From assembly GCA_922989275.2 (NCBI GenBank), contig OV277871.1, positions 62,765,848-62,829,847 on the forward strand: 64,000 nt of DNA. Reading direction: 5' to 3'. How positions within the stretch are numbered: the first letter of the stretch is position 1; the number at the start of each line of letters is the position of its first letter. Under the pieces are notes generated by a model. The model did no database searches and had not been told where the DNA came from. It saw nothing but the letters and a program-made list of their open reading frames with translations. Origin of the DNA: Gari tellinella (taxonomy: Eukaryota; Mollusca; Bivalvia; Cardiida; Psammobiidae). This document shows positions 29,311-63,426 of this stretch, piece by piece. The translations under genes and the position numbers were made by a program.

Positions 29311-29746
29311 ATGGCAAGCTCTGATCCAGCGGGGAAGTATGATATATTCCTGGTTCACAGTACAGATGATGGACCTGTGGCCATGCAGATCAACGAAGCG
29401 CTCAAAGCTCATAAATACAAGACCTGGGCACACTATAAGGAAGGCAACGAGTTTGATTTAGGGAAACCCATCTTCGATAACATTATTGGTGCTGTGGAAC
29501 TCTCTAAAATCATACTTATTTTGGTCACCAAAAATGCACTCAAGTCAGAATGGGTAACGTTTGAAATGCTGCTGGCGTTTGAGAAATCTCATCGAGAGGA
29601 TTCGTTGTGTGCACGCCTGGTGTTCGAGGGAGTGTCAGAAGAGGAGAAGAAGAGTTTCTTGACGGGAGATCTGGAGCTGATTCCCTCAGTCACTGTAGAC
29701 TTTAACAAAGACAACTGGTTTGATGGGTTGAAAGAGACAATTGATG
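29311..29746 (+). CDS. Exon: start codon and TIR1
   Basis: It encodes a complete TIR domain in one exon. Strand A is YDIFLVHSTDDG (10-21), the BB region follows YKTWAHYKEGNEFD (36-49), strand C is KIILILVTKNAL (66-77), then SEWVTFEMLLAF with Glu85 at the position of the catalytic Glu of SARM1-like and bacterial TIR NADases. It ends ATTGATG|GTACGG, phase 1. Reading through the donor would stop five codons later (TVNSL), which would give a TIR-only product. Confidence 0.9.
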
Positions 29747-32700
29747 GTACGGTCAACTCTCTTTAAAGACATTTCTTCAGTCCTTTGATGGACTGGACCC
29801 CCCACCCCTAGTTCTTGATAGGCATGAAAGTAACTGTAAAAGCATGCAGCATAATCTTTACCTATCTCAGTTTACCTGGTAAGACCCATACAAACTCATA
29901 CTCTAGAGGTTTTTCAATGGTTGTTTCTAGCCAAACTATCAATCATAAAAGTCTGGCCTCAAATGAGACACTTCATTGGCTTTATGCTATTGGCATGTAC
30001 ACTCAGTAGACCTATGAGTATTACATGGGAAATGCCTGGATAGGTACGTGATATCACCGAAAGTAGGTCAGGTAATGTCTTTAACCCTCTACTCCATAGC
30101 TTGTTTCAAGTATTGAAGATAGGTAATTATAAACACTTAAAGCAGGTTGAAAGTAAAGCATAATGCTAGAATACCATCTGCTAGACTATAGAAAATATTT
30201 CTCATGATCTACACATATTCAATTATTTATCCATCATCATCATCATAATCATCAGTATTTATATTAACGTGCAGGAGTGGGAGTGTTGTCCACATCGGTG
30301 GGCCCCCTTCCAGGCAGCTGGCTAACTGCACGCATAGCAGATCTCACATTGGATCTCCACATATCCCTGTCACAAGGGTCGACTTCAGAAAGTTTCCACT
30401 CTCAGTCTATCTCTCTCTGCTAATGTCTTCCATGTCATCTTGGGCCGCTCTGGACCACATCTTCCCTCAATCTGTATGGTGCAGACTGTCTTAATTGCGC
30501 CACTTGAGGCTGTCTTGAGCCTATTAATTCATAACTGTATAAATTGGAACTTATAATTTTCTTAAGGGTGTATCAATGTCATGAATTTGGGAACTTTTCA
30601 AAGTATATGAAAACACTCTATGATGGTTTTCTATTGAAGAGCTATTTAAGATGAATGAAAAAATAGAAAAAGTGTACATTTTGGTGAACAACAGTTGGCT
30701 CTACGGCCATGTAAAATTTACCCCACCCACTTCCTCTTATTTTGTCCTTTTAAAACAGCCCGCTTCAATAAAACCCATTTTAAATGAAAACAAATATGAT
30801 AATTTGGGTTTGTGTTATTTATTTCCTATCTATGGTAGTATTTCTTCATACAAAAACTAATTTAAGAAAAATAAGGCACCAAATGTGAAATTTATAAAGC
30901 TCTAAATATCATCGATATGGTACTTTTTTGTAAATTTTGTAAGGGGTGATAACTCTTTTTACTTTAATAACTCAAAATTTTCAACACTGACCTTTCAATT
31001 TCTTTTCATATTTTGAACTGCCTTAGTATGGGCTTTCATCTGGTAGAATATAAGAAAAAGTTAAATACTAGAACTATTTCATTTTCAAACTTTTTTACTT
31101 TTTTTCATAAAATAAAAAAATCTAATAAAATCATGCCCTATATCAAGCATATTTTTGATATTCAAGGATCAATATTGTTCAAACCTGGTGCCTGCTTTGT
31201 CTAAATTTGGTTTATATATGTGAACATACCACCATAGACATGAAATAAATAAAGAAAACCCAAATTACCATTTTTGTTTTGTTTTGATATAGATTTTACT
31301 GAAGCTTGTACTCTGAATGGGTAAAATTTGAATTTTTTTTTCCAAATTTGACATACCTTTTTCAAATCGCTGTAGCTCAAAAAAAAGGACACCACCATAT
31401 ATATTTTTTTTCATTATTTCATTCATCATAAATAGCTCTTCCAAAAAAACAATGATAGAAAAAAAGTTTAATACTTTGAAAAAAATGGCTCATGACATTG
31501 ATACACCCTTAAGTGCAGTAATAAATAGAATACATAAATGAATATCTATAGAGAGTATTTTTTTTTTTTATCTGGTCTGACTTGGTGTTATTGTTTTTGC
31601 AGAGAAAGTTACCATGACGACACTGTTACCAGCAGGAAATGTGGCAGTTGGCCTCGTCTACAACTACTTTGTGGGTTATCTGAGGATTATTCTACCAGGT
31701 TTGTTGATTGTAGGAAAATAGCAACATTGTTACAGATGAAAACTTTAAAACTTTCAATGTCATGACATAATCTGCTTTAATATACATGTACAATTATTGT
31801 CTGCTTTTACTTTTCAAATTTATATTTTGGGTACATTGAGTGTTTAACCCTTTAAACCCTAGTCCCGCCTATAGGCGTCCTTTTCAAACAGTGTACATGT
31901 GAATAGTACACTTTTCCTATGCAAATAGTGAAGACCCAGATCAGAGGGCTCCGAAAGGAGCCCTCTGATCAGGGTCTTCACTGTTTGTCACAATGCCAAA
32001 CATTGACAAAAACAACCCTTAAAAGTCAGAAATGGACTAGACTAAAATGGAAACTGGCATTGTCCATTTAAAGTTTCAGGGAGGAAAGAGTTAATATATT
32101 ATTGTAATGAGTCAAAACAGTTTGATCCTGTATAGAATGATCTTGGTCTACACTGTTTTCAAAAAAGTGTTTTTCAACTGTTGCGGTGCATAAGAAGGGT
32201 TAATGAATACCGTAATAATAATAATAATAAATTCTTCATTTCAAGAGGGTTACACAATTATTACAAATAAGCAGCTTATCTCCCTTTTGGCCCTCTAAAT
32301 AATTTAATATTAATTTACAGAAAATGCACAATAGATCTAATTTGAAAAATAGCAAAATTAATACAGTTTAACCCCTCTATTTGTAACGATGATCAAACTG
32401 TGGTTATGACAGAATGAGATGACAGCTTAAAACAAGGTGACAGTGAAACAGAAAGCTTATTAAGAAGCTTTCTGTTTTACTGTCACCCTGTCTTGAGCTG
32501 TCACCTCTCTTTTATTCATCAGTTAGTTTTAATTTTAATGGTTGTAACAGAGCCTTATATAAGGGGAGTATTTCATAAACTAAAATTGTTTTTTCTTCTT
32601 AAAACCCTATGATGTCACTACTCATTATAATCGTCTCAAAAAGACGATTTTAATGAGTAGTCACACCACAGGATTTGTTGCTAAAATGAGTGAGAAAATG

Positions 32701-32936: not shown

Positions 32937-32971
<35 letters not shown>

Positions 32972-35900: not shown

Positions 35901-38900
35901 TACCACATAGCCTGTTTCTAGTTTTGCAGACCGGTGACCACTTAAATGATTGTAAAAATTGGAATTATTTTCTTGAGTACAGGAATAAAATTTAAAGCAT
36001 GAAAATGGGGTAATGGGTTAAAGACACATATATCCAACAAAGCTAGAAGAATCCTAATATGCTTCTGTGGAGGAAAAGGATGTTATTACCCATTACCCCA
36101 TAGCCTGTTTCTAGTGTTGAAGACAGGTAACCACATAAAACAGGTTGAAAGTAAAGCAGAATGTGCCATATTGAGCCTGCTGTAAGATACCAGCTATTTA
36201 TTTCTGTATAAAATAGAACTATTTGTTTCCATGAAGCAATGAGTAAGATGCATAAAAAGGACCTATCTTTGGTGTACAGAACATGGGTAATGCATGTGCA
36301 GCCAGCTGTTTTGGAAGTGTTGAAATTCTCCTCTTGTTCTGCAGTGTTCCATATATAAGAGGGAGGAAACTAGAGGTTTTTAACAGTTAATTTTACAACA
36401 GATGTAAGACTTTTGTGAGACATATAGTATACAACCAAGATGTAAGACTTTTGTGAGACATATAGTATACAACCAATTTCCATTTCACAAGCAAAGCCTT
36501 TGTTAACTATTTATTTATGTAACACATATTTTGTAGCTCTACAAGATGCTGCTAAAGACAGTGATTACAATAAAGAAAACAAGATGTTTCCACGACTCCT
36601 GCTTCTGATACCCAAGTCCAGCAAAGTGCCTGTGATTGAGGGTCAGCACAGGGACTATTGTATCAAAAAGATGGAGAAGAGTCTTGCCATAGAGGCCACA
36701 CATGGGGATAAAAAGAGATCATACAATCCACCAGTGTACAGTATTTCCTACAAGGATTCCGAGGTAAACATCACTGTTATAGATATTAAGATTAATGACA
36801 GTGGAACTAGGTTTGCTACTTTACAATCAATTTTTTTAACCCTTACCCCATTAATACACCTTTTTACGCTTTTAATTTATTCTCCTACTGACGAAAATAG
36901 TTTCACTTTATTGTCACGAAGATGCAGCATAAGAAATGTTTTCTATATGCTAGCAGGTGGTAGCTCAAAGCAGGCTGAAAGTAAAGCAGACTGTGCCTTA
37001 AACCATTACCCCATAGCCTATTTCTAGCTTTAAAGACACGTGATCATTTAAAGTAGGTTGAAAGTAAAGCAGAATGTGCCTTAATGCTCATTCTGCTTTA
37101 CTTTCAGCCTGCTTTAATATATTATCTGCTAGGGCATAGAAACTATTTCTTATGATACATATTTATGCCTGTCTAAATAAGAACTATTTTCAGTTGAAGA
37201 ATAAATTAAAGGTGTAAAAAGGCGTATTTATGGAATAACGGGTTATGGTTGATTTGATATGTATCACAATATTGGCATTTTGATAATTTATTATTCAATA
37301 CAGTAATATCTGCATTGTGCACCCAGATTAGCACAAAAGTATGTGTAAAAACATTTTTGCTACCCTGATAAAGAAATAAGCAATGAAGAACAAGATTTTC
37401 TGTGCAAAACTTTCAAATGTTAACTTTGAACAGCCTTCATAGCTGCCTCATACATCTAATAAAGATAATAACTGGTTGCCAATGATTTCATATGCTACCA
37501 TTCATGATATCAAAGTGATTTGTACAAGTGTTTTGTTTAAATTTAGTCATTTGATGTGTATATTTTGGTTGTATTTCAGCCGTATTATTTTGTGGGTGAG
37601 TGCCCATTTATCCTGGAAACAATGCACAAGATCAATGAACACCAGTTCTCCAACATTGACCTGAGGTTCCAGGTGAAGAGATTCAGCCTGACATTGATGG
37701 AGCTTGTCAATCATCGACACAATGAGCAGTGTCACAACACGGTCCATCTCATCAGTTATGATGGTACGTAACATCATCAACTCTTTGAACCCTAGTCACC
37801 TAATGCATTATTTGCAAACAGTGTACCTCTGAGGAGTACACTTATTCAATGCAAACAGTGTAGACCCTCATCAGAGGGCTCCTTAAGGAGCCCTCTGATC
37901 AGGGTCTACACTGTTTGTCATTTTGACATATATTGTAAAAATCAGCCCTAAGAAGTCAAAAATCGACTAGACTTAGTTGAAAACTAGAATTGTCAATTTG
38001 AGGTTTCAGGGAGGAAATAGTTAAGCAGTGTTTTGCCTTTGTTCAGCTCCATTCCACTCACTTTAACCTATTACCCCATAGCCTGTTTCTAGTCACATAA
38101 TTATGACTACTTAAAGCATGGGTTAAAAAAAGCAGAATGTGCCTCAAGGTGCATTCTGCTTTACTTTCAGCCTGCTTTAAGCTACCATCTGCCAGGGTAC
38201 AGAACATATTTCTTATGATATTTAAGGAATAATTCGAATATTTATTGTATTCATGGAGTTATGAAACAAAAATTACAGCCAATCACAGCTAACCAAATGT
38301 AATGAAAACAAACACTATTAAATCATATATAGATATATCCAGAAATACTTAACGAAGTACGAAATTACCTTCCGATACTGTACAGAGATGAGGTCATGTC
38401 AAAGTCATTAGAAAACTTTAAATTCATAAAAAAGTAGGAGACAAATGCCAAACCTTAAAAAATCATTAACACAACCAAGATTTTATGATTCAATACTAAG
38501 GCACAAACACAATATTTAATGTAACACGATGCGGTCTGTGCAAGTATCTCTTAGAGGGTTTACATTTTTATTTCAAAGGTAAGATTTTCTATGTCAAACA
38601 AAATATGTAATGTGATGTTCAAAACCTTTTATACACAATGGTTTGTAACAGATGCAAAAAGTACTACATAAGTCAAACAATCGATAGGTAATGCAACAGC
38701 CGTACTGTTCATGCTCAGCATTTACGCGACCTTGACAACAAAACAACTACTCCTAAGCGCACACATAAACATATGTTGCTCATCCCATCCTAAAGTTTAT
38801 GTTTCCATTTTACAAAATGAACACAAACAGTACGTTGGCTAGGTTGATAAAAGAAACATATTTTATAAAATGTTTTAAACTGGATTTAGATACTAACGCT

Positions 38901-41900
38901 TAATGATTTTTTTCTTTCAAAATTACACTATCACAAGAAATAAGACGACTACGCGTCATGACGTCAAATGACGTATTGGTAGTGACTACATGACGCGACG
39001 TCGTTACCATGATACCATATAACACTGAAGAGCGGTAATGGCGAAACATGTTTGCTTCTAGTTTATTAGATTAAAAATTACATATAAAGGCATGTGAAGT
39101 CATTTTATTTAGTTTTCGGATATAGATATTTATATATAGACAGAGAAAGTAAAATATTCAAGCAAAAGCCGGAGCGGCAAATGTATCAATAATTATCAAG
39201 ATAAAAACGACCTAACACGCCTTCTATATATCTATGGAGTAAAGGGTTTTACTCATATACATTTTCAGAGGCCGAGGGGTTTCCTGCAGAAGCCATGTGG
39301 AAAACATTTCATGAGGAACTGAGGCAAGGCAAGAGTCCACCAGTAAGTGCTTTATATCCCTTTACCCCATAGACTGTTTCTAGTTTTGAAGACAGCTAAT
39401 CGCTTAAAGCAGGCTGAAAGTAAAACAGCCTGCTTTAAGCACCATTTTCTAGAATATCGATTAAAAGGTTTTTATCTCCATATTCACGCATGTATAAATT
39501 GAGATATTTTTAAGAGGAGGAATAAGCGTAAAAATGTATAAGGGTTAATATAATTAGACAAGTCAGTTTAGTCTTTTCATTGCTGATTAACCTTGTCCAC
39601 CATAACCATACATGCAATTAACATTTATTCAGCTCTGTTTAACTCATTTCTTAATAGTCTGTTTCTAAAATTGAAGTCAGATGACCATTTAAGGCAGTGT
39701 GAAATTAAAGCAGAATGTTGCTTAAGGTGCATTCTGCTTAACATTCTCCCTGCTTTAAACTACCATCTATATGAATACAGAAATTATTTCTAACGGTACA
39801 TATCAATGACTGTTTAAAGTGGATTTATTTTCTTCAGTGGAGGAATATATTTTCGTAGTTTTTAGCTCAACTGGCACGTAGTGCCAAGGTGAGCTATTTT
39901 GATCGTCCTGTGTCCGTCGTCGTCCGTCGTGCGTCGTTCGTTCGTCGTCAACAATTTCTTTGAACAACATCTCCTCTGAAACCACTGGATGGATCTTTAC
40001 CAAACTTGGTAGGAATGATCCTTGTATTGTCCTCTTTCAAAGTTGTTCAAATATTTCCGGTCCGTTGCATATCTAGGTCACAGGAGCTAAAAATAGATTT
40101 TTTCAATGAAAACTTAAAAAATCTTCTTGTCTGAAACCACAGTACCCTGAGCTAAGATATTTGGCACAAAGCATCGTCTTCAGGTCCTCTATCGAGATTG
40201 TTCAAATGATGTCCCTGGGGTCAAGATTGTTCAAATGATGTCCCTGGGGTCAAGAATGACTCCGCCCCGGGGGTCATGATTTTACATAAGAGTTATATAG
40301 TGAAATCTTCAAACATCATTTTCTCTGAAACTAATATTGCCAGAGCTTTGATATTTTGCATGTGGACCTTTTTAGAAGCCCTTAACATATATAAAAATTT
40401 TGTAAATATAGTTCCGGTCCGATGCATATCTAGGTCACAGGAGCTAAAAATAGATTTTTTCAATGAAAACTTAAAAAATCTTCTCGTCTGAAACCACTGT
40501 ACCCTGAGCTTAGATATTTGGCCCAAAGCATCGTCTTCAGGTCCTCTATCAAGATTGTTCAAATTATGTCCCTTGGGTAAAAAATGACCCGGCCCGGGGG
40601 TCGTAATTTTACATAGAGTTATATAGTGAAATCTTCAAACATCATTTTCTCTGAAACTAATATGGCCAGAGCTTTGATATTTTGCATGTGTACACTTCTA
40701 GAAGCCCTGAACCTATATTGTAAATATAGACCCGGTCCGTTGCATATCTAGGTCAACGGAGCTAAAAATAGATTTTTCCAATGAAAACTTAAAAAATCTT
40801 CTTGTCTGAAACCACAGTACCTATAGCTTAGATATTTGGCACAAAGCATCGTCTTCAGGTTCTCTATCAAGAGTGTTCAAATTTTGTCCCTGGGGTAAAA
40901 AATTATCCCGCCCCGGGGTTCGTAATTTTACATAAAGTTATATATAGTGAAATCTTCATACATCTTCATCTCTGAAACCAATATGGCCAGAGTTTTGATA
41001 TTTGGTATGATGACATTTCTAGAATCCCTTAAACAATATTGTAAATATGGTTCCGGTCCGTTGCATATGTAAGTCACCGGAGCTAAAAATAGATTTTTTC
41101 AATGAAAACTTGAAAAATCTTCTTGTCTGAAACCACAGTGCCCTGAGCTCAGATATTTGGCACAAAGGATCTTCTTTAGGTTTTCTTTCAAGATTGTTCA
41201 AAATATGTCCCTGGGATAAAAAAAATGATCCCGTCCTGGGGGTCATGTGACGCTTGTGTTTTTTTTTTTCAGGTGAGCGATATTTAGGCCCGCATGGGCC
41301 TCTTGTTGGAATTGGCATCATTACGCTTTACTCCATAATATGTTTCTAGTTATGAAGCTAGGTTACAACATAAAGCAGGATGAAAGCCTGCATTAAGCTT
41401 TTATTTGGTAGAATAGCGAGCTTTTTATGCCCCCGGCATCGACAGATGCGGGAGCATATAGTAATCGTCCTGTCTGTCCGTAACCAGGTTAAGTAGATTT
41501 TACCGTTTCGTCTAGCATCAACACCGCTTATTCAAATGCTTGGATACTTATACAGTTGTTGCCTTGGACCATTCCCTAGCCACCAATAATACCTAACCTT
41601 GATTTTGACCTTGACCTAATTTGGACTTAGAATATTTTGAATGGGCTATTTCTTGGTTAACTAGATTTTACCGTTTCATCTAGCATCAACACCGCTTACT
41701 CCAATGCTTGGATACTTATACAGTTGTTGCCTTGGACCATTCCCTATCCACCAATAGCACTCAACCTTGATTTTGACCTTGACCTAATTTGGACTTAGAA
41801 TATTTTGAAAAGGCTATTTCTTGGTTAACTAGATTTTACCGTTTCGTCTAGCATCAACACTACTTACTCCAATACTTCTATAACTATAGTTATTGCCTTA

Positions 41901-44900: not shown

Positions 44901-47900
44901 ACAGTAATACCACACAGTGACCACTCAATAATACCACACAGTGACCACTCAATAATACCACACGGTGACCACTCAATAATACCACACAGTGACCACCCAA
45001 TAATACCACACAGTGACCACTCAATAATACCACACAGTGACCACTCAATAATACCACAAAGTGACCACTCAATAATACCACACAGTGACCACTCAATAAT
45101 ACCACACACAGTGACCACTCAATAATACTACACAGTGACCTTCCAATAATACTACACAGTGACTACTCAATAGTACCACACAGTGGCCACTCAATAATAC
45201 CACACAGTGACCACTCAATAATACCACACAGTGACCACTCAATAGTACCACAGTGACCACTCAATAATACCACACAGTGACCACTCAATAATACCATACA
45301 GTGACCACTCAATAATACCACACAGTGACCACTCAGTAGTACCACAGTGACCACTCAATAATACCACACGGTGACCACTCAATAATACCACACAGTGACC
45401 ACTCAACAATACCATACAGTGACCACTCAATAATACCACACAGTAATACCACACAGTGACCACTCAATAATACCACACAGTGACCACTCAATAATACCAC
45501 AAAGTGACCACTCAATAATACCACACAGTGACCACTCAATAATACCACACAGTGACCACTCAATAATACCACAAAGTGACCACTCAATAATACCACACAG
45601 TGACCACTCAATAATACCACACAGTGACCACTCAATAATACCACGCGGTGACCACTCAATAATACCACACAGTGACCACTCAATAATACCACATGGTGAC
45701 CACTCAATAATACCACACAGTGACCACTCATTAATACCACACAGTGACCACTACACAGTGACCACTCAATAATACCACACAGTGACCACTCATTAATACC
45801 ACACAGTGACCACTCAATAATACCACATGGTGACCACTCAATAATACCACACAGTGACCACTCAATAATACTACACAGTGACTACTCAATAGTACCACAC
45901 AGTGGCCACTAAATAATACCACATGTGACCACTCAATAATACCACACGGTGGCCACTCAATAATACCACACAGTGACCACTCAATAATACTACACAGTGA
46001 CCTTCCAATAATACTACACAGTGACTACTCAACAGTACCACACAGTGTCCACTCAATAATACCACAGTGACCACTCATTATACCACACAGTGGCCACTCA
46101 ATAATACCACACGTGACCACTCAATAATACCACACAGTGACCACTCAGTAGTACCACAGTGACCACTCAATAATACCACACGGTGACCACTCAATAATAC
46201 CACACAGTGACCACTCAACAATACCATACAGTGACCACTCAATAATACCACACAGTAATACCACACAGTGACCACTCAATAATACCACACAGTGACCACT
46301 CAGTAGTAACACAGTGACCACTCAATAATACCACACGGTGACCACTCAATAATACCACACAGTGACCACTCAACAATACCACACAGTGACCACCCAATAA
46401 TACCACACAGTGACCACTCAATAATACCACACAGTGACCACTCAATAATACCACACAGTGACCACTCAATAATACCACACACAGTGACCACTCAATAATA
46501 CTACACAGTGACCTTCCAATAATACTACACAGTGACTACTCAATAGTACCACACAGTGGCCACTCAATAATACCACACAGTGACCACTCAATAATACCAC
46601 ACAGTGACCACTCAATAGTACCACAGTGACCACTCAATAATACCACACAGTGACCACTCAATAATACCATACAGTGACCACTCAATAATACCACACAGTG
46701 ACCACTCAGTAGTACCACAGTGACCACTCAATAATACCACACGGTGACCACTCAATAATACCACACAGTGACCACTCAACAATACCACACAGTGACCACC
46801 CAATAATACCACACAGTGACCACTCAATAATACCACACAGTGACCACTCAATAGTACCACAGTGACCACTCAATAATACCACACAGTGACCACTCAATAA
46901 TACCATACAGTGACCACTCAATAATACCACACAGTGACCACTCAGTAGTACCACAGTGACCACTCAATAATACCACACGGTGACCACTCAATAATACCAC
47001 ACAGTGACCACTCAACAATACCATACAGTGACCACTCAATAATACCACACAGTAATACCACACAGTGACCACTCAATAATACCACACAGTGACCACTCAG
47101 TAGTAACACAGTGACCACTCAATAATACCACACGGTGACCACTCAATAATACCACACAGTGACCACTCAACAATACCACACAGTGACCACCCAATAATAC
47201 CACACAGTGACCACTCAATAATACCACACAGTGACCACTCAATAATACCACAAAGTGACCACTCAACAATACCATACAGTGACCACTCAATAATACCACA
47301 CAGTAATACCACACAGTGACCACTCAATAATACCACACAGTGACCACTCAGTAGTAACACAGTGACCACTCAATAATACCACACGGTGACCACTCAATAA
47401 TACCACACAGTGACCACTCAACAATACCACACAGTGACCACCCAATAATACCACACAGTGACCACTCAATAATACCACACAGTGACCACTCAATAATACC
47501 ACACAGTGACCACTCAATAATACCACAAAGTGACCACTCAATAATACCACACAGTGACCACTCAATAATACCACGCGGTGACCACTCAATAATACCACAC
47601 AGTGACCACTCAATAATACCACATGGTGACCACTCAATAATACCACACAGTGACCACTCAATAATACTACACAGTGACTACTCAATAGTACCACACAGTG
47701 GCCACTAAATAATACCACATGTGACCACTCAATAATACCACACGGTGACCACTCAATAATACCACACAGTGACCACTCAATAATACTACACAGTGACCTT
47801 CCAATAATACTACACAGTGACTACTCAATAGTACCACACAGTGTCCACTCAATAATACCACAGTGACCACTCATTATACCACACAGTGGCCACTCAATAA

Positions 47901-56900: not shown

Positions 56901-59900
56901 TAAAGGTACGATTCGTTAAATCGCACTTGAAAAATGTTAGTTTGGAAATCTTAGGATTTTTCATGTCAACTTATGGCAGCCCTGTAGCCATTGGTGCAAA
57001 TCCCCTATGCCCAGCTATATAGAGTGTTTTATTGTGTAACACTGTACCCCATATCCTGTTACTACATTTTGAAAACATATATTGATCACTTAAAGCAGGT
57101 TGCAAGTAAAGCATAAGGTACATTCTGCTTAACTTTTAGCCTGCTTTAAGGATATAGGAAGTATGTTGCACATGCATTACTGTATACAGTGAAATTATTT
57201 TCTTCAGGAGAAATTGATTAATGTATCTATGGAGTAAAAGGGTGAAAACAAGTGGCTATTTAAAGCAAGATGAAAGTAAAGGAGAAAGATCCTGAAGGAG
57301 CCTTTTGCTTTACTTTCATATTGTTTAAAGAAGTATCATGCCTTTGGCTATATATGTTTGTGATTTGAGATGTTTGCTATGGAGGAAAGGGTTCACCCAT
57401 CTCCCGCTGTTACAATGTTTGCTTAAAGACCTGTCATTTGTAAGACATTCCTAATAGTTGTCAAAATAATTTGTTACATATTTAATTGAAGAAACCTAAG
57501 GAATATCAAGCGTTGAAAAGTTTGGATCTAGATCAGACACTGTGTTACATGGTGTCTGAACATTAAATTTTGTTGTATTGATGAAAGTTCATCAGTTAAT
57601 TGGTTAAAATGTGTGGGTATATCGGTCTGTCTGGTAGTCTTGGTATGTTTGCATCAGTTGAAATATATCTGCCTGACTATTGGTTGATTTTTCTTGGGGT
57701 GTGTGTTTCTGTGTTTTGACTGTCTATCAATCATTCCATCCCCAACATCAACCATGCCTGAAGCCTTTGAACTACAATGTACATGTACTTGCAGTCAGCC
57801 ATGCATGTTTCTCCAGGGCTCCAGATGGGAGTATTTCAAAAACTAAAATCTTTATGTGTGCATTTAACCCTATGGTGTCACTACTCATTAGAATTGTCTC
57901 TTCGAGAAGATTCTAATGAGTAGTAACACCATAGGATTAGGTCTGAAATATATCAAGTGAGAAAATGCTGGATTTTATCATTTTACTCCCTCTTTTCTAG
58001 AGCCCTGTTTCTCTGACTGAGGATCTTGGGCGTACAGTTCTACTACCACTCTCTACTTCCAAACTGTTGCCTACATCAACATTCAAAGTTTTTCCAGAAT
58101 GCGTTTTATACATACATACAGTAATGTATAATAGTCAAGCAAAACTAAACCGCTTGCTAATGATAGTCTAGTGATGATATTTACCTTTTTAATGCTGAAT
58201 TTTGAATTGGACTAATCTGTTTTCTGATCAGTAACTAGTTTAAATTGATGCACAAGGGAATTGCTCCCAAGATATTGTCAAATATGAAAAGCCGTGCAGA
58301 CCCTCTGAGCTGCATCTTTGCTGTTTGCAATGGAGGGATATGATTCCAGCACTTAAAAGCTCAATCCTTTCCTCCTCCGAAGCCCCTGAGAATGCCTTTA
58401 CCTAGTCCTCTGAATAAGTGCCTTATTCCTTCTCTTGCAATTAGCATATAATATTATGTTGATGCTTTTTGAGAACAGTGTAGATCCAGATCAAACAGCT
58501 TCTGAAAGAGTTGTCTTATTAGGATCTAGACTGTTTCTTAAAGGATCTGTCTTGTATGAGTCTTCACTCTTTCCTGGGGATTGTTTTCATTGTTTTATAA
58601 GTTATTTTATGGCATAACTTGTGGCCTGGGAGTGGAATAAAGCAATTATATAAATATCGTAACCCACTAGTGAAATATCGTTTTTGTGCTCCAACCAAAC
58701 CTTTTTGTCCACAAGCGTATGATAGTTAGATGTACAAATGTATGAGATTTGCTAAGGAGGAAAGTGTTAAAGACAAATTTAAATCTATCTAAGTTATTGT
58801 TTCCATATGTATTTGTGTTGTTCAGGCATTGATTTTTTCACCATTTCAGTCCTTGTTAGGCTGTTATTAACTGACTTATACCAAGTGCATTGTTTGACAA
58901 TCATTCTGATTTTTCTTCAGTCAATATGTGCTAAACTCTAAATTTGAGAATCAAAAGGAGACAATAGTTTTGAAACAGAAGATATTTTGGCAAGGGTTAC
59001 AAGATATGAGTCAACCTTTCTCCTGTAATTAAGGTACATGTAAATTGATGCTTTAGATGGAGCTGTTTGGTCAGGGTCCTCACATTTTTCGTAACCCCTT
59101 ACTCCATAGACACACATATTTGTGCATTTGATTTATTCGTACCCTGAAGAAAATAGTTTTAATTTAAACAGTAATGAATACATGCAAGTATCATAAGTAA
59201 TAATTTCTGTATTCTAGCAGAATAATGGTAGCTTAAAACAGGCTGAAGGTAAAGCAAAATGCATTTAAATTAAGGTGCATTCTGCTTTACTTTCAACCTG
59301 CTTTAAGTGGCCACCAGTCTTCAAAACTAGAAATAGGATATTGAGTAAAGGGCTAAAGGATGTTGCTGACATGAGCTTACTCTCTTTGCTGGAGAAGAGT
59401 TTCCTTATTTAATCAGCCAATGATAGTTTAGATGAGATGCACAAAGTGGATGCTGGGCATATGATTACATTGTGTATCTAAAACAAGAAGGCTGAAGTAT
59501 GCTTGTATTTCAGGTAAAAAGACAATGAGTGAGTCTATTCCTGTTGGTAAGGTATTTGAGGGTCTGTCCTACGCCTACTTACTCAACTACCTGGGTCTGG
59601 CAGTGACTGGAACTACAGCGGAGGGCAGAGGTGAGATGGGTTTTCAACAGCTATCACATGATTGGCCATTTAAACAACAATCTTGAATTAACACAAACCC
59701 CCATAGCCAGATTATAGTACTGAAAGTAGGTGACCACATAATGCAGGTTAAAATTAAAGCAGAATGTGCCTAATCCTTTAATGCTTTACTCCATAGCATG
59801 TATCTAGTATCTAAGATTGGTGACCACTTAAAATAGGTTGAAAGTAAAGTAGAAGTTGCAAATTATAGAAATGGACTTTCTTTTGAACAGTGCTCAACCC

Positions 59901-62900
59901 ATTCAGACATCTTAATGAATTGACAATCTCAGTTTCAAAAATGTACTCTATTCTTTACTATCTTGTGATGTTTTTTCAATATATTGCAAAATGAGAAACA
60001 GGGGAATCCCTAGTCAGAGGGGGCATTTAGGAGCCTACTGATCTGGGTGTACCCTGCATGTCTTGGACAACTAGACTCCTCTCTGATTAATGATGTTAAA
60101 ACTCATCGCTACGGTTCAATGTTTTACTTAAGGTGTTAAAGTTTTGCCATGTTTTTCTCTCTTTAACATCATCCAGGCTTTAGACAGAGATTTGAAGATG
60201 CTATGACAAAATTCAGTGTAGAGTGTCCATGCGTACCTCGGGTATTTGTCATTGTCCCAAAAAGTTGCACATTTCCTGGTCCAGGGAGCCAGTTTGCCAA
60301 TGAGGAGCACCTTGGAAGCCTGGAACCAGTGGTGATGGGCTTCAGAAAGTACTTCCTACAGTTGTACCGATTAACACTCAGTGATGGAAAGGTATGTTAA
60401 CCCATTACCCCATAGCCTGTGTCTAGTTTTGAAAACAAGTTACTACTTACAGTAGGTTGAAAGTAAAACAGAATGCTTGACTTTCAGCTTGCTTTAAGTG
60501 AAAATCTGCTAGAATATAGAAAACAATTGTTTTTAACATTATTTGTGACTGTATAAAGAGGAATTATTTTCATCAGTGGATGAATAAACTTGAGGAGTAA
60601 AAATGAGATTTTATGGGTAAAGGGTAAAGGTCATTATGTATATGATGTGTTTGATTCACAGTAAAGTCTTTGAAAACCAAAGCTGAGAGAAAGAAATCAG
60701 TTTATAGATGTTTGAGGATAAGAGAGCTTTAGGGATTACAATTTGTATAGCTAATGTTCCCCGTTGTAAACCGTACTTAAAATAAAGCTTATTGTATCTT
60801 GTATTATTTAACCCATTACCCCCATAGCATGTTTCTTGTTTTGAAGACAGATGACCTCTTAAAGCAGGTAAAATGTAAAGCAGAAGGCACAATCTGCTTT
60901 ACTTTCAACTGGCTTTAAGCCACTATCTGCATGGAAAAAAATAATTATGGTGCATATTCATGACTTAATAAAGTGGAACTACTTTCTCCAGCGAAGTCAG
61001 GAATAAATCTGAGGCATAAAAAGGCATTTCTATGGGGTTATGGGTTAAAAGAAGTTGTATTTGCAGTTGTTTAAGACAGATGACTGCTTCATGTAGCTGC
61101 CACCTGTCTTATGAGCTGTGTATACCATTCTGTTGAAGAATTGGTGAGCAAGTAAAATGGAGAAATGTGTTTGGCATTCATAGGCTTTTGGAGATTTCAC
61201 TGTATTCCTTGTGTTAATTCAAAAAGGGATTATTGTTAATGTTAAATCTATACTAAAAGAAATTAGAAACGCAACTTTTTTAAACGTAAGATATTCATGT
61301 ACAAATATTTTCTCAATATTTTGCACGACTTTTCCGTGTGTGCACCGAGACACTCTTACCCAGTGATGGAAAAACGTCGTCGAACGCCCGTCGATATCAC
61401 GAGTAGCACGGGCTTAGCGTAAACTAAAGGTCACGTGACTACAGGTAATTGTATAGAGTAAACCTGTTCGGTTACATTACAAAATTCATCAGTATTACCA
61501 AGTTAGTAAATTTTAAAAGAAAAAAATCTAATCTGATCAAAGATGGCAATGCCACGCTTACGCAATGATCAACGTTAAGCAGCCGTTCGAGTGCTGATGA
61601 ACGGAAGTTCTCAGAGTAACGTTGTAAATCATCTTACTGTGCAAAAAAGCACTATTTCCAGGCTGTATGATCGTCTGCGTACCATTGGTACAAAGAACGA
61701 CCGTCTTCGACCTGGCCTTCCCCGAGTAACGTCACGTCGTGATAACGTTTTTATAAGGCTGACACACTTACGTCACAGGTTCCAGACACCCGAAGAAACC
61801 GACAGAAATTTTAGAGGTCCTAATAACACCAGACCTTGCGCACAAATTGTGTCAAACAGGCTCTGGATTGGCGGAATCAGAGCAAGAAAACCATACGTAA
61901 GATTGCCGTTAACAAGGCCTCAACGTCGACGTCGTATGAATTGGCTGCAGGTACATCGTCTAGAGTTGATGTTTATACATCGATGGAGGAGTGTGTTGTT
62001 CATTGACAAATACAGCCCCGATCTTTTGCCCCTTGAACATCTATGGAACGTCTTGAGCGGGCGTGTTTTGAGACTTCATCCAACACTGACGACGCATGGC
62101 AAATTGAACCGTGCATTGCAAGAGGAGTAGGAAAACATCCCAATTTGTCAAATTAAAGGACTCATCTACTCTCTGCATAGGCTTATCCGCGCTGCCATGG
62201 CGGCACATGAGGGTCATACCAGATATTGACCATATCGTTAGGACTTTACACTGGCGCGACTTGCTCAACGTCATCTCTCCATCACACTTTTTAAGTATGC
62301 AAAATTTCTTAGGATGCAAAATGTTGATAAATGTTTAACGTTGAAAATGATATATAACTTTAATAACCAAACTATATAAACAAATGCAATATATACATCC
62401 AAAGTTCGAGTTGCGTTTCTAAATTCCTTTAGTATATATATGACAGCCACTCAATAAACAAACCTAGCAAGCTCATTAGAAATGTAGCTTCTAACTCATT
62501 TTAATACATGACAGAGTTAATGCTGAAAGCTCCTTTTGGAGCTTTGTAAATTTATTTTGTTCTTAATTAAGCTGTCACTAATCTAGGTCCCTTTTTTTAG
62601 AGCAGGCGGTTTTGTACCCAATGACAGATGATGGTTTTTCACATTCAATGTGGCGAGTATACTCATTATAGCAGAGTATTTGAGAAGAGTATGCATGCTT
62701 TATGTAAACTGTGTAGATCGAGATTAGAGGTCTCTCAACGGATCCCTCTGATTAGGATTTGTACTGTTTGTCAGTTTGAAATAAATTGTAAAAAGCAACC
62801 TTAAATAATAGACATATTTAGTAGACTTTATTGGAAACTGGAAATTATCTATTTGAAGTGTCAGGGACGATCTGTCTGTATACAAGTGTCAGTGGTGACC

Positions 62901-63426
62901 TGCCTGTACACATACCGGTAGGACTGTTAGTGACAATATATTCAAGTAACTAGTTCTGTAACTTCTGTTCCTACTCTTTTATGTTAGATGCTGAATGTTC
63001 AATTTTGTTTTGAATAGAGTTAATCAGTTCAACCCGTTACGCTATAGCCTGTTTCTAGTTTGAAGACAGGTGACCCTGTAAGGTTGGTTGAAAGTAGGCA
63101 TATTTTCTGCTTTACTTTCAACCTACTTTAAGTGGTCACCTGTCTTCAAAACTAGAAACATGCTATGCGGTAATGGGTTAACTCATGTACACAGTGTTTT
63201 TGTTTTTTCTATTTTCAGAAGGTGTGCTACGCCCGAGAATATGCCACACCAGCTATAACCCTGCATGAAATGGCCAACACTATTCCCTTCTCTGGTTTGA
63301 CCAAAGAAGCCATGAATGAACAGGCCAAAGCATTCTCAGATTTGGTTACCAAACTTATAGATGACGATAAATTCAACCAAAATGTCCAAAAGCTGAAGGA
63401 TAAAGTGACCATGGTATATTTTGATG
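29311..63426 (+). CDS. STING1: Tandem TIR-STING-TIR-STING receptor (3' end beyond window)
   Basis: The gene predicts a fused innate-immune receptor: two units, each an NADase-type TIR fold followed by a STING cyclic-dinucleotide-binding domain. Exons are 29311-29746, 31603-31698, 36537-36763, 37580-37763, 39269-39342, 42286-42330, 42720-42974, 50037-50157, 59514-59630, 60177-60391 and 63219-63426. All have GT/AG borders and matching phases (1,1,0,1,0,0,0,1,1,0,1) and give 659 codons. Domains: TIR1 about 9-145; STING1 about 150-339; linker 340-354; TIR2 about 361-479; STING2 from about 483 on. No transmembrane segments are seen; the TIR stands where vertebrate STING has its membrane helices, as in oyster TIR-STING. 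TIR2 cannot start its own gene easily: the codon before GCT at 42720 is TAG in frame, and the first Met lies deep in the domain. The stop is outside the window. Alternative: an isoform ending after exon 6. Domain calls are by eye. Confidence 0.8.
30079..30240. mobile_element. TTAACCC-type MITE, left part
   Basis: It starts TTAACCCTCTACTCCATAGC. After interruptions by a LINE tail (30236-30525) and a TTAA element (30562-31512), its right arm seems to continue at 30526-30561 and after 31512. Confidence 0.6.
30236..30525 (-). mobile_element. LINE 3' end, antisense, with ATG-repeat tail
   Basis: On the minus strand it encodes pieces such as ERPKMTWKTLAERDR and MWRSNVRSAMRAVSQLPGRG in nearby frames, typical of the C-terminal end of an RTE-like LINE open frame. 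It ends in a (TGA)n tail at its 3' end, the CATCATCAT run at 30236-30258. Confidence 0.6.
30562..31512. mobile_element. TTAA-flanked inverted-repeat element
   Basis: TTAAGGGTGTATCAATGTCA at the left and TGACATTGATACACCCTTAA at the right are inverted. TTAA is at both outer edges, the target duplication of piggyBac-type elements. Internal segments (about 30775-30850 and 31219-31295) are also inverted copies of one another. No transposase frame. Confidence 0.75.
31603..31698 (+). CDS. Exon: start of STING1 domain
   Basis: The acceptor is TTTTTGCAG. Residues 146-177 read EKVTMTTLLPAGNVAVGL then VYNYFVGYLRIILP. This matches the first helix of the human STING ligand-binding domain ([20 protein letters not shown]). 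The Tyr that stacks on the ligand base (human Tyr167) is Tyr171, and Gly166 is kept; Ser162 is Asn. Confidence 0.9.
31847..32094. mobile_element. GATCAG foldback MITE
   Basis: It is the inverted counterpart of 8815-9064, starting TTAAACCCTAGTCCCGCC and ending GGGAGGAAAGAGTTAA. The central palindrome is GGGCTCCGAAAGGAGCCC. Confidence 0.8.
32425..32505. repeat. Palindromic repeat
   Basis: ACAGTGAAACAGAAAGCTTA and its complement TTCTGTTTTACTGT form a hairpin. It is a relative of the AAAGCAGG palindromes. Confidence 0.6.
32598..33200. mobile_element. ACTCATTATAATCGTC foldback cluster
   Basis: A palindrome at about 32607-32675 (CTACTCATTATAATCGTC / GACGATTTTAATGAGTAG) is followed by inverted copies of TTACTCCCTCTTATCTGGA and a second palindrome at 33065-33118. 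A minus-strand LINE tail with a CATCATCAT run (32936-33060) sits between them. Confidence 0.6.
33276..35579. mobile_element. 2.3-kb terminal-inverted-repeat element
   Basis: The inverted ends are CATGGAGGAATTATACCCTG plus GAGAAG and their complement ending at 35579. It is flanked by CCCATTA on both sides (33269-33275 and 35580-35586), a 7-bp target duplication. Inside are three ~180-bp tandem units (33385-33928), a TCTG-rich run (33940-34085) and a short antisense Penelope-like 3' end near 34860-34950. No transposase is seen. It is inserted in a TTAACCC-type MITE. Confidence 0.8.
33385..33928. repeat. ~180-bp tandem repeat, three copies
   Basis: Near-identical units contain CTTTTAATGTCATCTTTTCG, ATCTTACGCGTAGTACAAAA and GAGAGAAAAACGTATTTTTT. 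Unit starts are near 33395, 33573 and 33752. Confidence 0.9.
35580..35821. mobile_element. TTAACCC-type MITE, right part after insertion
   Basis: The left end is GTTAACCCATTA at 33264-33275. The rest follows the 2.3-kb insert and includes the palindrome GAATGTGCCTTAAGGCACATTC, ending TTAATAGGTTAA. Confidence 0.75.
35890..36260. mobile_element. Two adjacent TTAACCC-type MITEs
   Basis: One runs from ATTAATCCATTACCACATAG to ATGGGGTAATGGGTTAA (ends 36019). A second starts TTACCCATTACCCCATAGCC at about 36087 and is worn at its right end. Confidence 0.65.
36399..36476. repeat. 38-bp direct duplication
   Basis: AGATGTAAGACTTTTGTGAG with the following 18 bases stands twice in a row, ending about 60 bases before the exon at 36537. 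Confidence 0.85.
36537..36763 (+). CDS. Exon: STING1 central part
   Basis: Residues 178-253 start ALQDAAKDSDYNKENKMFPR and continue LLLLIPKSSKVP, matching LPELQAR... and RLYILLPLD of vertebrate STING. The strand that carries Arg238 in human STING is PPVYSISYKDSE, with Pro at the Arg position in my alignment. It ends GAG|GTAAAC, phase 0. Confidence 0.85.
36838..37244. mobile_element. TTAACCC-type MITEs, overlapping copies
   Basis: A long-arm copy starts TTAACCCTTACCCCATTAAT. A second starts ACCATTACCCCATAGCCTAT near 37003 with palindrome GCAGAATGTGCCTTAATGCT, ending GGAATAACGGGTTA. Confidence 0.65.
37580..37763 (+). CDS. Exon: STING1 ligand strand and helix
   Basis: Residues 254-314, PYYFVGECPFILETMHKINE... 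to VHLISYD. It corresponds to EYATPLQTL... of human STING. The Glu260 and Thr263 positions read Val258 and Cys261. The exon is 184 bases, 24 shorter than its two homologues at 2838 and 63219. Confidence 0.85.
37778..38025. mobile_element. GATCAG foldback MITE
   Basis: It is a third copy of the 8815/31847 type: CTTTGAACCCTAGTCACC to GGGAGGAAATAGTTAA, with the core GGGCTCCTTAAGGAGCCC. It begins 15 bases after the exon ending 37763. Confidence 0.75.
38060..38235. mobile_element. TTAACCC-type MITE, left part
   Basis: TTTAACCTATTACCCCATAG, then the palindrome AGCAGAATGTGCCTCAAGGT. The right arm breaks at about 38220 where another repeat begins. Confidence 0.65.
38520..38790 (+). pseudogene. Penelope-like element GIY-YIG remnant
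   Basis: Translation gives LCKYLLEGLHFYFKGKIFYV, then NLLYTMVCNRCKKYYISQTI. This resembles the Cys-containing linker and GIY-YIG endonuclease start of Penelope-like retroelements. In-frame stops show decay. The text around 39010-39060 (GAAGAGCGGTAATGGCGAAA) may be its 3' end. Confidence 0.6.
39269..39342 (+). CDS. Exon: last helix of STING1
   Basis: Residues 315-339, EAEGFPAEAMWKTFHEELRQ then GKSPP. It matches the end of the vertebrate ligand-binding domain (SSFSLSQEVLRHLRQ). The acceptor is ACATTTTCAG; the donor CCACCA|GTAAGT is in phase 0. Confidence 0.8.
39355..39548. mobile_element. TTAACCC-type MITE
   Basis: It runs from TTTACCCCATAGACTGTTTC to ATAAGGGTTAA, with the short palindrome AAAGCAGGCTGAAAG / AACAGCCTGCTTTAAG. 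It starts about a dozen bases after the exon ending 39342. Confidence 0.7.
39640..39858. mobile_element. TTAACCC-type MITE, truncated
   Basis: ACTCATTTCTTAATAGTCTG, the palindrome around GCAGAATGTTGCTTAAGGTG, and the long arm to GGAGGAATATATTTTCGTAG, where a Helitron-like element cuts in. Confidence 0.6.
39859..41306 (+). mobile_element. Full-length TTTTTAGCTCACC-type element
   Basis: The 5' end is TTTTTAGCTCAACTGGCACG with pairing arm GTGCCAAGGTGAGCT. Four internal units follow. The 3' end is CAGGTGAGCGATATTTAGGC, hairpin GGCCCGCATGGGCC, TCTTGTT. It interrupts a MITE and lies in the intron between 39342 and 42286. Confidence 0.8.
41325..42130. mobile_element. TTAACCC-type MITE split by a Helitron-like element
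   Basis: The left part (41325-41421) has TTTACTCCATAATATGTTTC and AAAGCAGGATGAAAGCCTGC. The right arm (42027-42130) has GAACTATTTTCTTCAGTGGA and GGAGTAATGAG. Confidence 0.65.
41422..42026 (+). mobile_element. TTTTTATGCCCCCGG element with ~170-bp tandem core
   Basis: It starts TTTTTATGCCCCCGGCATCG, pairing with GATGCGGGAGCATA. Three units share AGATTTTACCGTTTCGTCTA and CCTTGACCTAATTTGGACTT. It ends with GCCACCGGGGGCATAAGCGT, the hairpin GCGTTTATTGAACGC, then AGTCTTGTTT. A related 3' end lies at 49600-49688. Confidence 0.75.
42286..42330 (+). CDS. Exon: 15-residue linker between STING1 and TIR2
   Basis: It encodes VQKKLINKEGKLDGT in phase 0 at both borders, between TTCCACAG and the strong donor ACT|GTAAGT. 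Reading through would add 29 residues and stop at 42415-42417, a possible short isoform with one TIR and one STING. Confidence 0.7.
42372..42470. mobile_element. Short TTAACCC-type MITE
   Basis: TTAACCCTTTACTCTATAGC to TGATCAAAGGGTTAA, with AAAGCAGGCTGAAAG inside. It starts about 40 bases after the linker exon. Confidence 0.65.
42720..42974 (+). CDS. Exon: TIR2, first part
   Basis: Residues 355-439 include SSVYITNIDTEADKTTADQV (strand A, helix A), VHFTNGDGDLTLQGMKKASF (a BB/helix B region several residues shorter than in TIR1) and YVFIVSEEAIRDKTFKMQYD. The last segment aligns without gaps to TIR1 ILVTKNALKSEWVTFEML and puts Gln424 where TIR1 has Glu85, and Thr420 where it has Trp81. Both borders are phase 0. 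Confidence 0.85.
43045..43135. repeat. ACTCATTAGAATCGTC palindrome
   Basis: TACTCATTAGAATCGTCTCT and its complement AGACGATTCTAATGAGTAGT form a near-perfect hairpin. The same family is at 32607 and 57870. Confidence 0.75.
43250..49365. repeat. 24-bp minisatellite, ~6.1 kb, with higher-order structure
   Basis: The unit is CAGTGACCACTCAATAATAC plus CACA, roughly 250 copies. As 24 is a multiple of three, both strands show long spurious frames (SDHSIIPH and VVLLSGHC repeats). Variant units recur in blocks: text from 44007 to about 44550 repeats 1724 bases later (45731-46275) nearly unchanged, and the block with 'ggccactaaataataccacatgtg' also returns near 47700 and 48413. It lies in the 7.1-kb intron between the two TIR2 exons. 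Confidence 0.95.
49440..49688 (+). mobile_element. 3' part of a TTTTTATGCCC-type element
   Basis: It ends GACCTAATTTGGACTTAGAG... GCCTTGAATGCAGCCTCTTGTTT in pieces, like the element at 41422-42026. The 5' end is missing, possibly replaced by the minisatellite. Confidence 0.55.
49748..49992. mobile_element. MITE with GTTTCATAAAACTTTG termini
   Basis: The inverted ends are TTTCATAAAACTTTGTACGAC and GTGCAAAGTTTTATGAAAC in shortened form. The central palindrome pairs CTTTGGAATCGTCTT with AAGACGATTCCAAAG. It ends 44 bases before the exon at 50037. Confidence 0.75.
50037..50157 (+). CDS. Exon: TIR2, second part
   Basis: Residues 440-479, VVGVLPKGTDVKQLPQNYSW then ITLLKETEPEYLQKLWIAIQ. It matches the final strand and helix of TIR1 (LVFEGVSEEE..., NWFDGLKETI). 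The acceptor TGTTTAAAG lies 44 bases after a MITE. It ends CAAT|GTAAGG, phase 1. Confidence 0.85.
50168..50372. mobile_element. TTAACCC-type MITE
   Basis: It has CCCTTTGCTCCATACATACA at the left and CTATGGAGTAAAGGGGTAAA at the right, beginning about ten bases after the exon ending 50157. Confidence 0.6.
51789..52334 (+). mobile_element. tRNA-containing inverted-repeat element, copy 2
   Basis: TTAAAGGGACTCGCAACCGG to TCTGGTTGCGAGTCGCTTTAA. It is almost the same length and sequence as 18480-19026 but in the other orientation. The tRNA-like segment reads on the plus strand at about 52101-52195. Confidence 0.8.
52101..52195 (+). tRNA. Degenerate tRNA-like segment in copy 2
   Basis: TGGTCCATTGGTCTAAGCGG and GGGTTCGAATCCCACC look like A and B boxes. 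Stem pairing is incomplete, as in copy 1. Confidence 0.4.
52357..52583. mobile_element. TTAACCC-type MITE
   Basis: TAACCCTTTCCCCCATAAAT to CTATGGGGTAAAGGGTAAAA, with the palindrome AAAGCAGGCTGAAAG / TTTTCAACCTGTTTTAAG. Confidence 0.65.
53555..53592. repeat. Perfect 38-bp palindrome
   Basis: AGAGACAGTGTATAGCCAT is followed at once by its reverse complement. It lies inside the 4.3-kb element; GGATG-containing flanks extend the pairing weakly. Confidence 0.75.
54235..54340. promoter_or_regulatory. GC-richer patch with CRE-like and YY1-like motifs
   Basis: In AT-rich surroundings lies TTACGTCACACAGGTAAACA directly followed by AAATGGCGGCCCCC. TTACGTCA is CRE/ATF-like; AAAATGGCGGC is YY1-like and could double as a start codon (16-codon frame only). 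It may be a promoter remnant carried by the 4.3-kb element. Speculative. Confidence 0.25.
55323..56545 (+). mobile_element. TTTTTAGCTCGCC element with ~180-bp tandem core
   Basis: The 5' end TTTTTAGCTCGCCTGTACGT pairs with TACATGACGAGCT. Five to six units share TGTGTGTATATGGACAAGAC and CTTGACCTTGAACTTAGGGC. The 3' end is GGTGGCGAGCTTTGTTGTC, hairpin GTTGTCTCTCTGACAAC, then TCTTGTTT. Same plan as the TTTTTAGCTCACC elements. Confidence 0.8.
56787..56912. mobile_element. TTAACCC-type MITE core
   Basis: The palindrome AGCAGAATGTGCCCTAAGGC is flanked by AAAGCAGGCTGAAAGTAAAG and its complement; it lies within other repeat text (inverted CTGCCAT / GGCAGCC on either side). Confidence 0.65.
57040..57395. 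mobile_element. Two adjacent palindromic MITEs
   Basis: The first has CACTGTACCCCATATCCTG to GGAGTAAAAGGGTGAA. The second has AAAGCAAGATGAAAGTAAAG pairing with CTTTACTTTCATATTGTTTAAAG and ends GGAGGAAAGGGTTC. Confidence 0.6.
57400..59090. other. Intron stretch with few recognisable repeats
   Basis: It contains a palindrome of the ACTCATTAGAATTGTC family at about 57870-57950 and a worn GATCAG foldback near 58475-58540. No exon fits between the phase-1 borders at 50157 and 59514. Confidence 0.5.
59093..59356. mobile_element. TTAACCC-type MITE
   Basis: GTAACCCCTTACTCCATAGA to GAGTAAAGGGCTAAAG. The palindrome centres on GCAAAATGCATTTAAATTAA. Confidence 0.65.
59514..59630 (+). CDS. Exon: start of STING2 domain
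   Basis: Residues 480-518, CKKTMSESIPVGKVFEGLSY then AYLLNYLGLAV. It is colinear with the STING1 exon at 31603, down to the shared phase 1 borders. The ligand-stacking Tyr is Tyr505; Gly166 is replaced by Asn504 and Ser162 by Ala500. Confidence 0.88.
59700..59870. mobile_element. Worn TTAACCC-type MITE fragments
   Basis: CCCCCATAGCCAGATTATAG with TGCAGGTTAAAATTAAAGCA, then a second start TTTACTCCATAGCATGTATC. Confidence 0.5.
60177..60391 (+). CDS. Exon: STING2 central part
   Basis: Residues 519-590 start GFRQRFEDAMTKFSVECPCV and continue PRVFVIVPKSCTF, matching the RLYILLP strand. The later strand is FLQLYRLTLSDGK; Gln580 falls at the human Arg238 position. It ends GGAAAG|GTATGT, phase 0. 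Confidence 0.85.
60398..60632. mobile_element. TTAACCC-type MITE
   Basis: It begins TTAACCCATTACCCCATAGC only seven bases after the exon ending 60391, so it contributes the start of the intron. Confidence 0.75.
60808..61050. mobile_element. TTAACCC-type MITE, complete
   Basis: TTAACCCATTACCCCCATAG to TATGGGGTTATGGGTTAA, with the palindrome AAAGCAGAAGGCACAATCTG. Confidence 0.75.
61253..62432 (+). mobile_element. Tc1/mariner element, internally deleted
   Basis: The inverted ends CTAAAAGAAATTAGAAACGC and GCGTTTCTAAATTCCTTTAG are flanked by TA (61251-61252 and 62433-62434), the standard target of the superfamily. It carries a broken transposase. It sits in the intron between 60391 and 63219. 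Confidence 0.85.
61543..62229 (+). pseudogene. Tc1/mariner transposase, decayed
   Basis: The reading starts at ATG 61543 (MAMPRLRNDQR) and meets TAA at 61576. After that come helix-turn-helix text SQSNVVNHLTVQKSTISRLY, a GLPRVTSRRD linker and GIRARKPYVRLPLTRPQRRR. Near residue SVLFIDKY the frame jumps straight to SPDLLPLEHLWNVLSGRV, so the central catalytic part is deleted. TAG at 62128-62130 replaces the Trp expected in QEEW, and the frame ends at TGA 62227-62229. It cannot make an active transposase. Confidence 0.85.
62440..63020. other. Intron stretch with a worn foldback
   Basis: Only a degraded GATCAG-type foldback is seen (about 62695-62775: TAAACTGTGTAGATCGAGAT / GATTAGGATTTGTACTGTTT). 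Confidence 0.5.
63029..63182. mobile_element. TTAACCC-type MITE, compact and fully palindromic
   Basis: TTCAACCCGTTACGCTATAG to GCTATGCGGTAATGGGTTAA. The two halves pair almost along the whole 154 bases. This compact form shows the structure of the family best. It ends 36 bases before the STING2 exon at 63219. Confidence 0.85.
63219..63426 (+). CDS. Exon: STING2 ligand strand and helix
   Basis: Residues 591-659, KVCYAREYATPAITLHEMAN to VTMVYFD. Glu597 and Thr600 match human Glu260 and Thr263. The exon is 208 bases, like 2838-3045. It ends TTTGATG|GTAAGA in phase 1; the last exon lies outside the window. Confidence 0.88.

Follow-up and report, generated by a model that had tools for sequence, protein, structure and literature searches.

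Two TIR-STING units in one predicted chain: a candidate TIR-STING-TIR-STING gene family in the bivalve Gari tellinella

Does a single gene of the bivalve Gari tellinella join two TIR-STING units in one polypeptide, or do two neighbouring genes simply lie in tandem? The question arises from a 64,000-nucleotide stretch of genomic DNA (contig OV277871.1, positions 62,765,848 to 62,829,847 of the forward strand; hereafter the window), in which a preliminary description had recognized eleven exons at 29311-63426 with canonical borders and matching phases, encoding domains in the order TIR-STING-TIR-STING. We rebuilt these exons (E1-E11; Table 1) from the DNA sequence. Coordinates are window positions and the gene is on the plus strand. 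The first TIR and STING domains are referred to as TIR_A and STING_A (unit A), and the second as TIR_B and STING_B (unit B). We favour, with a probability of about 0.62, the reading that the locus is one gene for a putative 689-residue receptor for cyclic dinucleotides, in which the two sensors are covalently linked and an effector-competent TIR is accompanied by a pseudo-TIR, and that it is one of three or more such genes in this genome.

The observation was confirmed, and the exon structure was reproduced exactly. All ten introns are GT-AG, the junctions 39342/42286, 42330/42720, 42974/50037 and 50157/59514 are as described, and E1-E11 join into an open frame of 659 codons with the TIR-STING-TIR-STING order. 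The first STING helix occurs twice, in exons of the same phase, and the phases of E2-E4 recur in E9-E11 (1/1, 1/0, 0/1 in both). The coding part starts at 29311, since an in-frame TAA (29302) is found two codons upstream of the ATG. The gene is incomplete within the window and ends 747 bases past its edge, giving the full protein of 689 residues. The GC content of the exons is 0.44 versus 0.37 in the window, and each of the 11 exons is GC-richer than its own flanks. At the intronic stop rate, the probability that unit B (E7-E11, 304 codons) is open by chance is ~7e-10. By a crude splice score with untrained matrix values, 11 of 11 donors are in the top 5% of the GT sites of the region and eight of ten acceptors are in the top 11%.

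The same arrangement is found at two other loci in the genome (1.6 Gb, 80 contigs; the window is on contig C16). Local comparisons covered 254 kb, namely, the window with 100 kb before it and 90 kb after it. An upstream paralogue directly adjoins the window gene (window-frame positions -37971 to 5577) and has the same TIR-STING-TIR-STING order; its model consists of 11 exons with ten GT-AG introns and encodes 716 residues. The two genes align end to end, with 31% identity over 673 aligned codons. Differences at codon positions 1, 2 and 3 amount to 0.54, 0.41 and 0.66, so that the third position is the most divergent, as expected of coding sequence. Taken exon by exon, the third position is highest in 10 of 12, with E6 as an exception (0.67, 0.67, 0.60) and a tie in E12. 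Nine of the ten introns of the upstream paralogue match those of the window gene in phase and within two alignment columns. The third gene, 22 Mb away on the minus strand of the same contig (40299460-40273883), also displays this order, and its model encodes 692 residues in 11 exons separated by ten GT-AG introns; a terminal exon was sought for it and not found. Genome searches at E up to 0.01 yielded 10 matches with unit A and seven with unit B. Both units hit the same three loci, and unit A in addition gave weak TIR-only matches on contigs C7 and C9; these counts are lower bounds. A PF15009 family search of the genome hit one place only, an exon of the upstream paralogue, and missed the window gene, and human STING as a query retrieved nothing at E up to 1. 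Since both queries missed known loci, exon-wise searches are insensitive and further STING genes may exist. These results suggest that TIR-STING-TIR-STING is a family of at least three genes in this genome and not an accident.

The strongest evidence for a single gene comes from the two paralogues. In all three genes, STING_A ends with a stopless exon whose exit phase is 0, and the exon that opens TIR_B has entry phase 0 and does not begin with an ATG. The acceptor TAG of the TIR_B exon is itself an in-frame stop in two of them, the window gene and the third gene. The first in-frame methionine within this exon is at residue 47, 26 and 86 in the three genes, and a start there would therefore cut into the TIR domain. 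The preliminary description had pointed to a separate first exon for unit B within 42331-42719 as the alternative to a single chain. No single phase-0 first exon with an ATG and a donor no weaker than the poorest of the model was found in this interval or in the corresponding intervals of the upstream paralogue (914 nt) and the third gene (3260 nt). On average, 0.16, 0.37 and 0.87 such exons occur in random intron segments of 389, 914 and 3377 nt; thus, the zeros remove candidates and carry little statistical weight. The wider interval 39343-42719 contains five candidate first exons, four of them from the ATGs at 42238 and 42256, each of which has a version reading into E6. With two paralogues of this layout, a single gene for both units is well supported. 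The original interpretation holds in this respect and fails in calling the second unit "complete".

PF15009, the STING ligand-binding family, is found twice in the window gene (84.6 and 41.6 bits, curated cut-off 27) and in all six STING domains of the three genes; the prokaryotic family PF20300 reaches only 13.1 bits (cut-off 27.1), in one domain. STING_A and STING_B of the window gene are identical in 46 of 199 alignment columns. TIR_A exceeds the Pfam TIR_2 cut-off of 28 bits (Table 1), and a TIR directly N-terminal to a PF15009 STING domain is recognized by Pfam in unit A of all three genes. The identity of TIR_B is less clear by sequence. In the window gene it scores 19.5 bits against TIR_2 alone and 16.5 within unit B, both below the cut-off, and alone it matches no PDB sequence at E values up to 10. 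Three observations speak for the TIR between the two STING domains claimed in the preliminary description: its position, its resemblance to the partial TIR row of the oyster TIR-STING (z 6.8 versus shuffles) and the model of the upstream-paralogue copy, TIR_B', which is predicted to fold as a TIR. The TIR-then-STING order of unit B is accordingly read from exon position and this fold model. In structure, the TIR_B' model comes closest to MAL/TIRAP, with MyD88 among the best matches; sequence identity to them is only ~18%, and a common fold shows no function. AlphaFold of TIR_A alone was uninformative (predicted local distance difference test score, 39.5). TIR_B is split across E7 and E8 in the window gene only, being a single exon in both paralogues. 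A hydropathy scan, which is not a dedicated transmembrane predictor, gave only two windows of ≥1.6; these belong to TIR_A of the window gene, within its core, and the paralogues have none.

The two TIR domains differ in the W/E motif, the glutamate of which we take to be the SARM1-type catalytic residue. The motif is present in TIR_A of all three genes and in none of the three TIR_B, so the description of two complete TIR-STING units was overstated; both STING domains and TIR_A stand, and TIR_B is degenerate. Moreover, in two of the three genes TIR_B is 9-12 residues shorter between the first strand and the strand preceding the motif. By analogy, only TIR_A could therefore be an enzyme. As the W/E motif is also found in TLR2, its presence is no proof of NADase activity. 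In this reading TIR_A would be the only TIR left with a catalytic-type site, its NADase activity being extrapolated from bacteria. The suggested link to TIR NADase activity is consistent with the motif in TIR_A and finds no counterpart in TIR_B; in PMC10732462, the role of the oyster TIR is described as unclear, and this domain is placed among animal TIRs such as TICAM1 and 2.

The ligand pockets were compared in the six STING domains, in human STING numbering; the pocket roles of Y167, R238, E260, T263, T267 and the lid residue R232 are taken by us as given. Y167 and R238 are kept in all six and Y240 in five, with M in STING_A of the upstream paralogue. E260 is conserved in four, comprising all three STING_B and one of the three STING_A (E, D, Q). 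T263 and T267 are each found in two of the six, G166 is replaced by N in all three STING_B, and an equivalent of R232 is found in one of six, in a poorly aligned column. Both STING types look like ligand binders, or close derivatives of them, with differing chemistry. A split in which A senses nothing and B senses was considered and dropped: STING_B of the third gene lacks T263/P264, and STING_A of the window gene has E260 and T267.

Phylogenetic analyses support the view that the split between units A and B is older than that among the three genes, so that neither unit is a recent copy of the other. In the STING tree, the three STING_B group together (99.6/100) and the three STING_A are set apart from all others (93.1/94), with oyster STING (a partial row) outside both clusters; in the TIR tree, the three TIR_B form a group (98/99). 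The trees contain 12 and 7 short sequences, some of them partial, and support this one point only. Both TIR-STING introns of the window gene are at an equivalent place (18 residues up to and including a conserved GL). Together with the similar linkers described below, this co-location makes the duplication of one TIR-STING unit a better explanation than two independent fusions.

Fusions of TIR and STING are known in oyster and in bacteria, as the preliminary description had noted. The Crassostrea gigas TIR-STING (PDB 6wt6 and 6wt7) is the best PDB sequence match of the whole window-gene protein and likewise has an N-terminal TIR followed by the STING ligand-binding domain. Its linker, TWESLLPVGN, is similar to TMSESIPVGK and TMTTLLPAGN of the window gene. 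By contrast, the oyster chain of 415 residues has a single TIR-STING unit and aligns over one unit, whereas the gene models described here contain two of each domain, the second TIR being degenerate. Bacterial TIR-STING of the cyclic-oligonucleotide-based antiphage signalling system (CBASS) for example from Sphingobacterium faecium (described in PMC9402430), has the same domain order, and the logic of ligand-driven assembly is likely shared; the STING domains described here, however, match animal PF15009 and not prokaryotic PF20300. Animal and bacterial TIR-STING fusions arose convergently, according to PMC10732462. The "two STING domains" mentioned in a bacterial STING paper (PMC12421889) are those of a dimer. 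Vertebrate STING shares the ligand-binding domain family with the proteins described here, and Y167, R238 and E260 are found in most of their domains; it differs in having a transmembrane bundle, of which the hydropathy scan shows none in the models described here; these have a TIR instead, and two STING domains per chain. No chain with two TIR-STING units was found in the literature searched, which consisted mostly of titles and the beginnings of abstracts; annotated examples may exist.

STING has been described as a dimer in which two chains are related by symmetry. In the receptor proposed here, the two STING domains would bind cyclic dinucleotides as a fixed pair, either within one chain or with two chains side by side. 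Ligand binding would rearrange the STING stems, and TIR_A domains of neighbouring molecules would then be brought together. TIR_B would serve as a non-catalytic spacer or scaffold that sets the geometry, and may limit TIR_A assembly. The idea of a covalent pseudo-dimer with two different, recognizable pockets, put forward in the preliminary description, fits this anatomy. Its fuller form is a covalent pseudo-heterodimer with two non-identical half-pockets per chain, an effector TIR and a conserved pseudo-TIR, fixed before at least three paralogues diverged and kept since; we hold it tentatively and would sooner doubt than assume it. The strongest competitor, with somewhat less than an even chance of being correct, accepts the four-domain chain and has STING_A pairing with STING_A and STING_B with STING_B across two chains in a parallel homodimer, in which nothing is covalently pre-paired. 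The strong divergence of STING_A from STING_B agrees with it, as their dimer surfaces may therefore not match, and the STING structures discussed in PMC9402430 and PMC12421889 are dimers of separate chains.

Alternative ends of one gene, giving a short TIR_A-STING_A isoform besides the long four-domain form, appear unlikely; the long introns flanking E8 (7.1 and 9.4 kb) and the in-frame stops shortly past the E5 and E6 donors (39370 and 42415) would be compatible with them. Still less probable is that each locus holds two adjacent genes, one for TIR-STING (A) and one for TIR-STING (B), which were copied together and whose proteins may heterodimerize. Retention of the intron after E5 would lead to the stop at 39370, followed by ATTAAA hexamers at 39460 and 39704, and three polyA-like hexamers are found in the paralogue interval. 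In addition, the ATG at 42238 or 42256 could begin a transcript into E6, and the methionine at residue 26 of the paralogue TIR_B exon is within the first strand. Against two genes stand the stopless phase-0 exit of STING_A, the phase-0 entry into unit B with no start ATG and the empty intervals, though few first exons were expected by chance; furthermore, there is no polyA hexamer between E6 and E7, and neither paralogue offers an equivalent of the E6-ATG alternative. Decay of unit B into a functionless remnant, to which the degenerate TIR_B might point, is hardly credible given that the STING_B frames are open in all three models (the terminal exon of the third gene not being found), that the pocket residues are kept and that unit B is as conserved as unit A between the window gene and the upstream paralogue (35-36% identity in exons 9-11 versus 31-38% in exons 1-4).

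Several observations weigh against the single four-domain receptor. Its single-chain model is drawn from genomic sequence alone. The linker exon E6 is the weakest of all (7% identity, no third-position excess), with neither a coding signature nor a counterpart in the paralogues; the ATGs at 42238 and 42256 are in frame into it, and the test for separate starts covered single first exons. By the crude score, E3 and E9 have weak acceptors (top 50% and 37%). TIR_B is above the Pfam TIR cut-off in none of the three genes, in the window gene its direct similarity to TIR_A falls short of significance (z 1.0), and TIR_B of the third gene is near full length in the region shortened in the other two (61 versus 62 residues). 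With E260 in one of three STING_A and R232 in one of six domains, the ligand may be a different one, and STING_A might bind none. Finally, some paralogue exons (E5', E10b', E12', E1a'' and E3a'') and the borders of the TIR_B exon of the third gene were picked with set phases, mostly also by similarity, so that part of the agreement among paralogues arises by construction. In particular, the search for E5' already specified a 1/0 exon, which partly predetermines its phase; E5'' was picked up by plain tblastn (E 0.18 to 0.30), with borders read directly.

Table 1. Exons of the window gene and the last two exons of the upstream paralogue, in window coordinates
Feature	Position	Strand	Description
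E1	29311..29746	+	Start ATG; TIR-1 (TIR_A); phase out 1; Pfam TIR_2 48.3 bits; SEWVTFE at residue 79, putative catalytic Glu at residue 85
E2	31603..31698	+	First helix of STING-1 (STING_A); phase 1/1
E3	36537..36763	+	Middle of STING-1; phase 1/0; R238/Y240 equivalents; acceptor weak (crude score)
E4	37580..37763	+	STING-1; phase 0/1; E260/T267 equivalents
E5	39269..39342	+	End of STING-1; phase 1/0; no stop
E6	42286..42330	+	Charged linker, 15 residues; phase 0/0; not found in paralogues
E7	42720..42974	+	Beginning of TIR-2 (degenerate TIR_B); phase 0/0; TAG in frame at 42717; no Met before exon residue 47
E8	50037..50157	+	Remainder of TIR-2; phase 0/1
E9	59514..59630	+	First helix of STING-2 (STING_B); phase 1/1; acceptor weak (crude score)
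E10	60177..60391	+	Middle of STING-2; phase 1/0; R238/Y240 equivalents
E11	63219..63426	+	STING-2; phase 0/1; E260/T263/P264/T267 equivalents
E12 (terminal)	64656-64747 (window frame, beyond the window)	+	Adds the final helix region of STING_B; TAG stop, last base 64747
Exon 11' of upstream paralogue	2838..3045	+	Its STING-B; phase 0/1
Exon 12' of upstream paralogue	5468..5577	+	Terminal; stop TAG; picked among candidates by strong acceptor and alignment position

Both tandem genes have, close to their 3' ends, a conserved stretch of ~37 bases (GAGGTGAGCTT.GTAAT.TTTGA.TACCCAT), at window-frame positions 4998-5034 and 65608-65644. In the paralogue it precedes the last exon, and in the window gene it comes after the stop; of the first four differences between its copies, three occupy every third base of a single frame. 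It was considered as the last exon and dropped when E12 was found nearer.

Repeats are abundant in the region, 41% of the 254 kb being covered by at least two self matches. Intron 7, between the TIR_B exons, contains a minisatellite of ~6 kb (43251-49359) with a 24-base unit (ACAGTGACCACTCAATAATACCAC and 48/72-base multiples), whose reading frames give rise to spurious long open reading frames. Intronic tandem arrays with units of 145-321 bases are found at 33389-33935, 40221-41244, 41487-41959 and 55437-56377. A dispersed short repeat with inverted halves (CCCATTACCCCATAGCCTGTTTCTAG ... AAAGCAGGCTGAAAGTAAAGCAGAATG; e.g., 36086-36180, 37025-37125 and 38060-38200) is probably a miniature transposon, and intron 10 harbours a Tc/mariner-like transposase remnant (61579-62130; weak matches to HTH_Tnp_Tc3_2 and DDE_3, both below the cut-off).

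If the proposed receptor is real, a chain that carries both halves with differing pocket residues would make it possible to read an asymmetric ligand in one orientation, and its stoichiometry would be fixed. The conserved pseudo-TIR next to an intact TIR would provide a testable case for the tuning of TIR assembly in animals.
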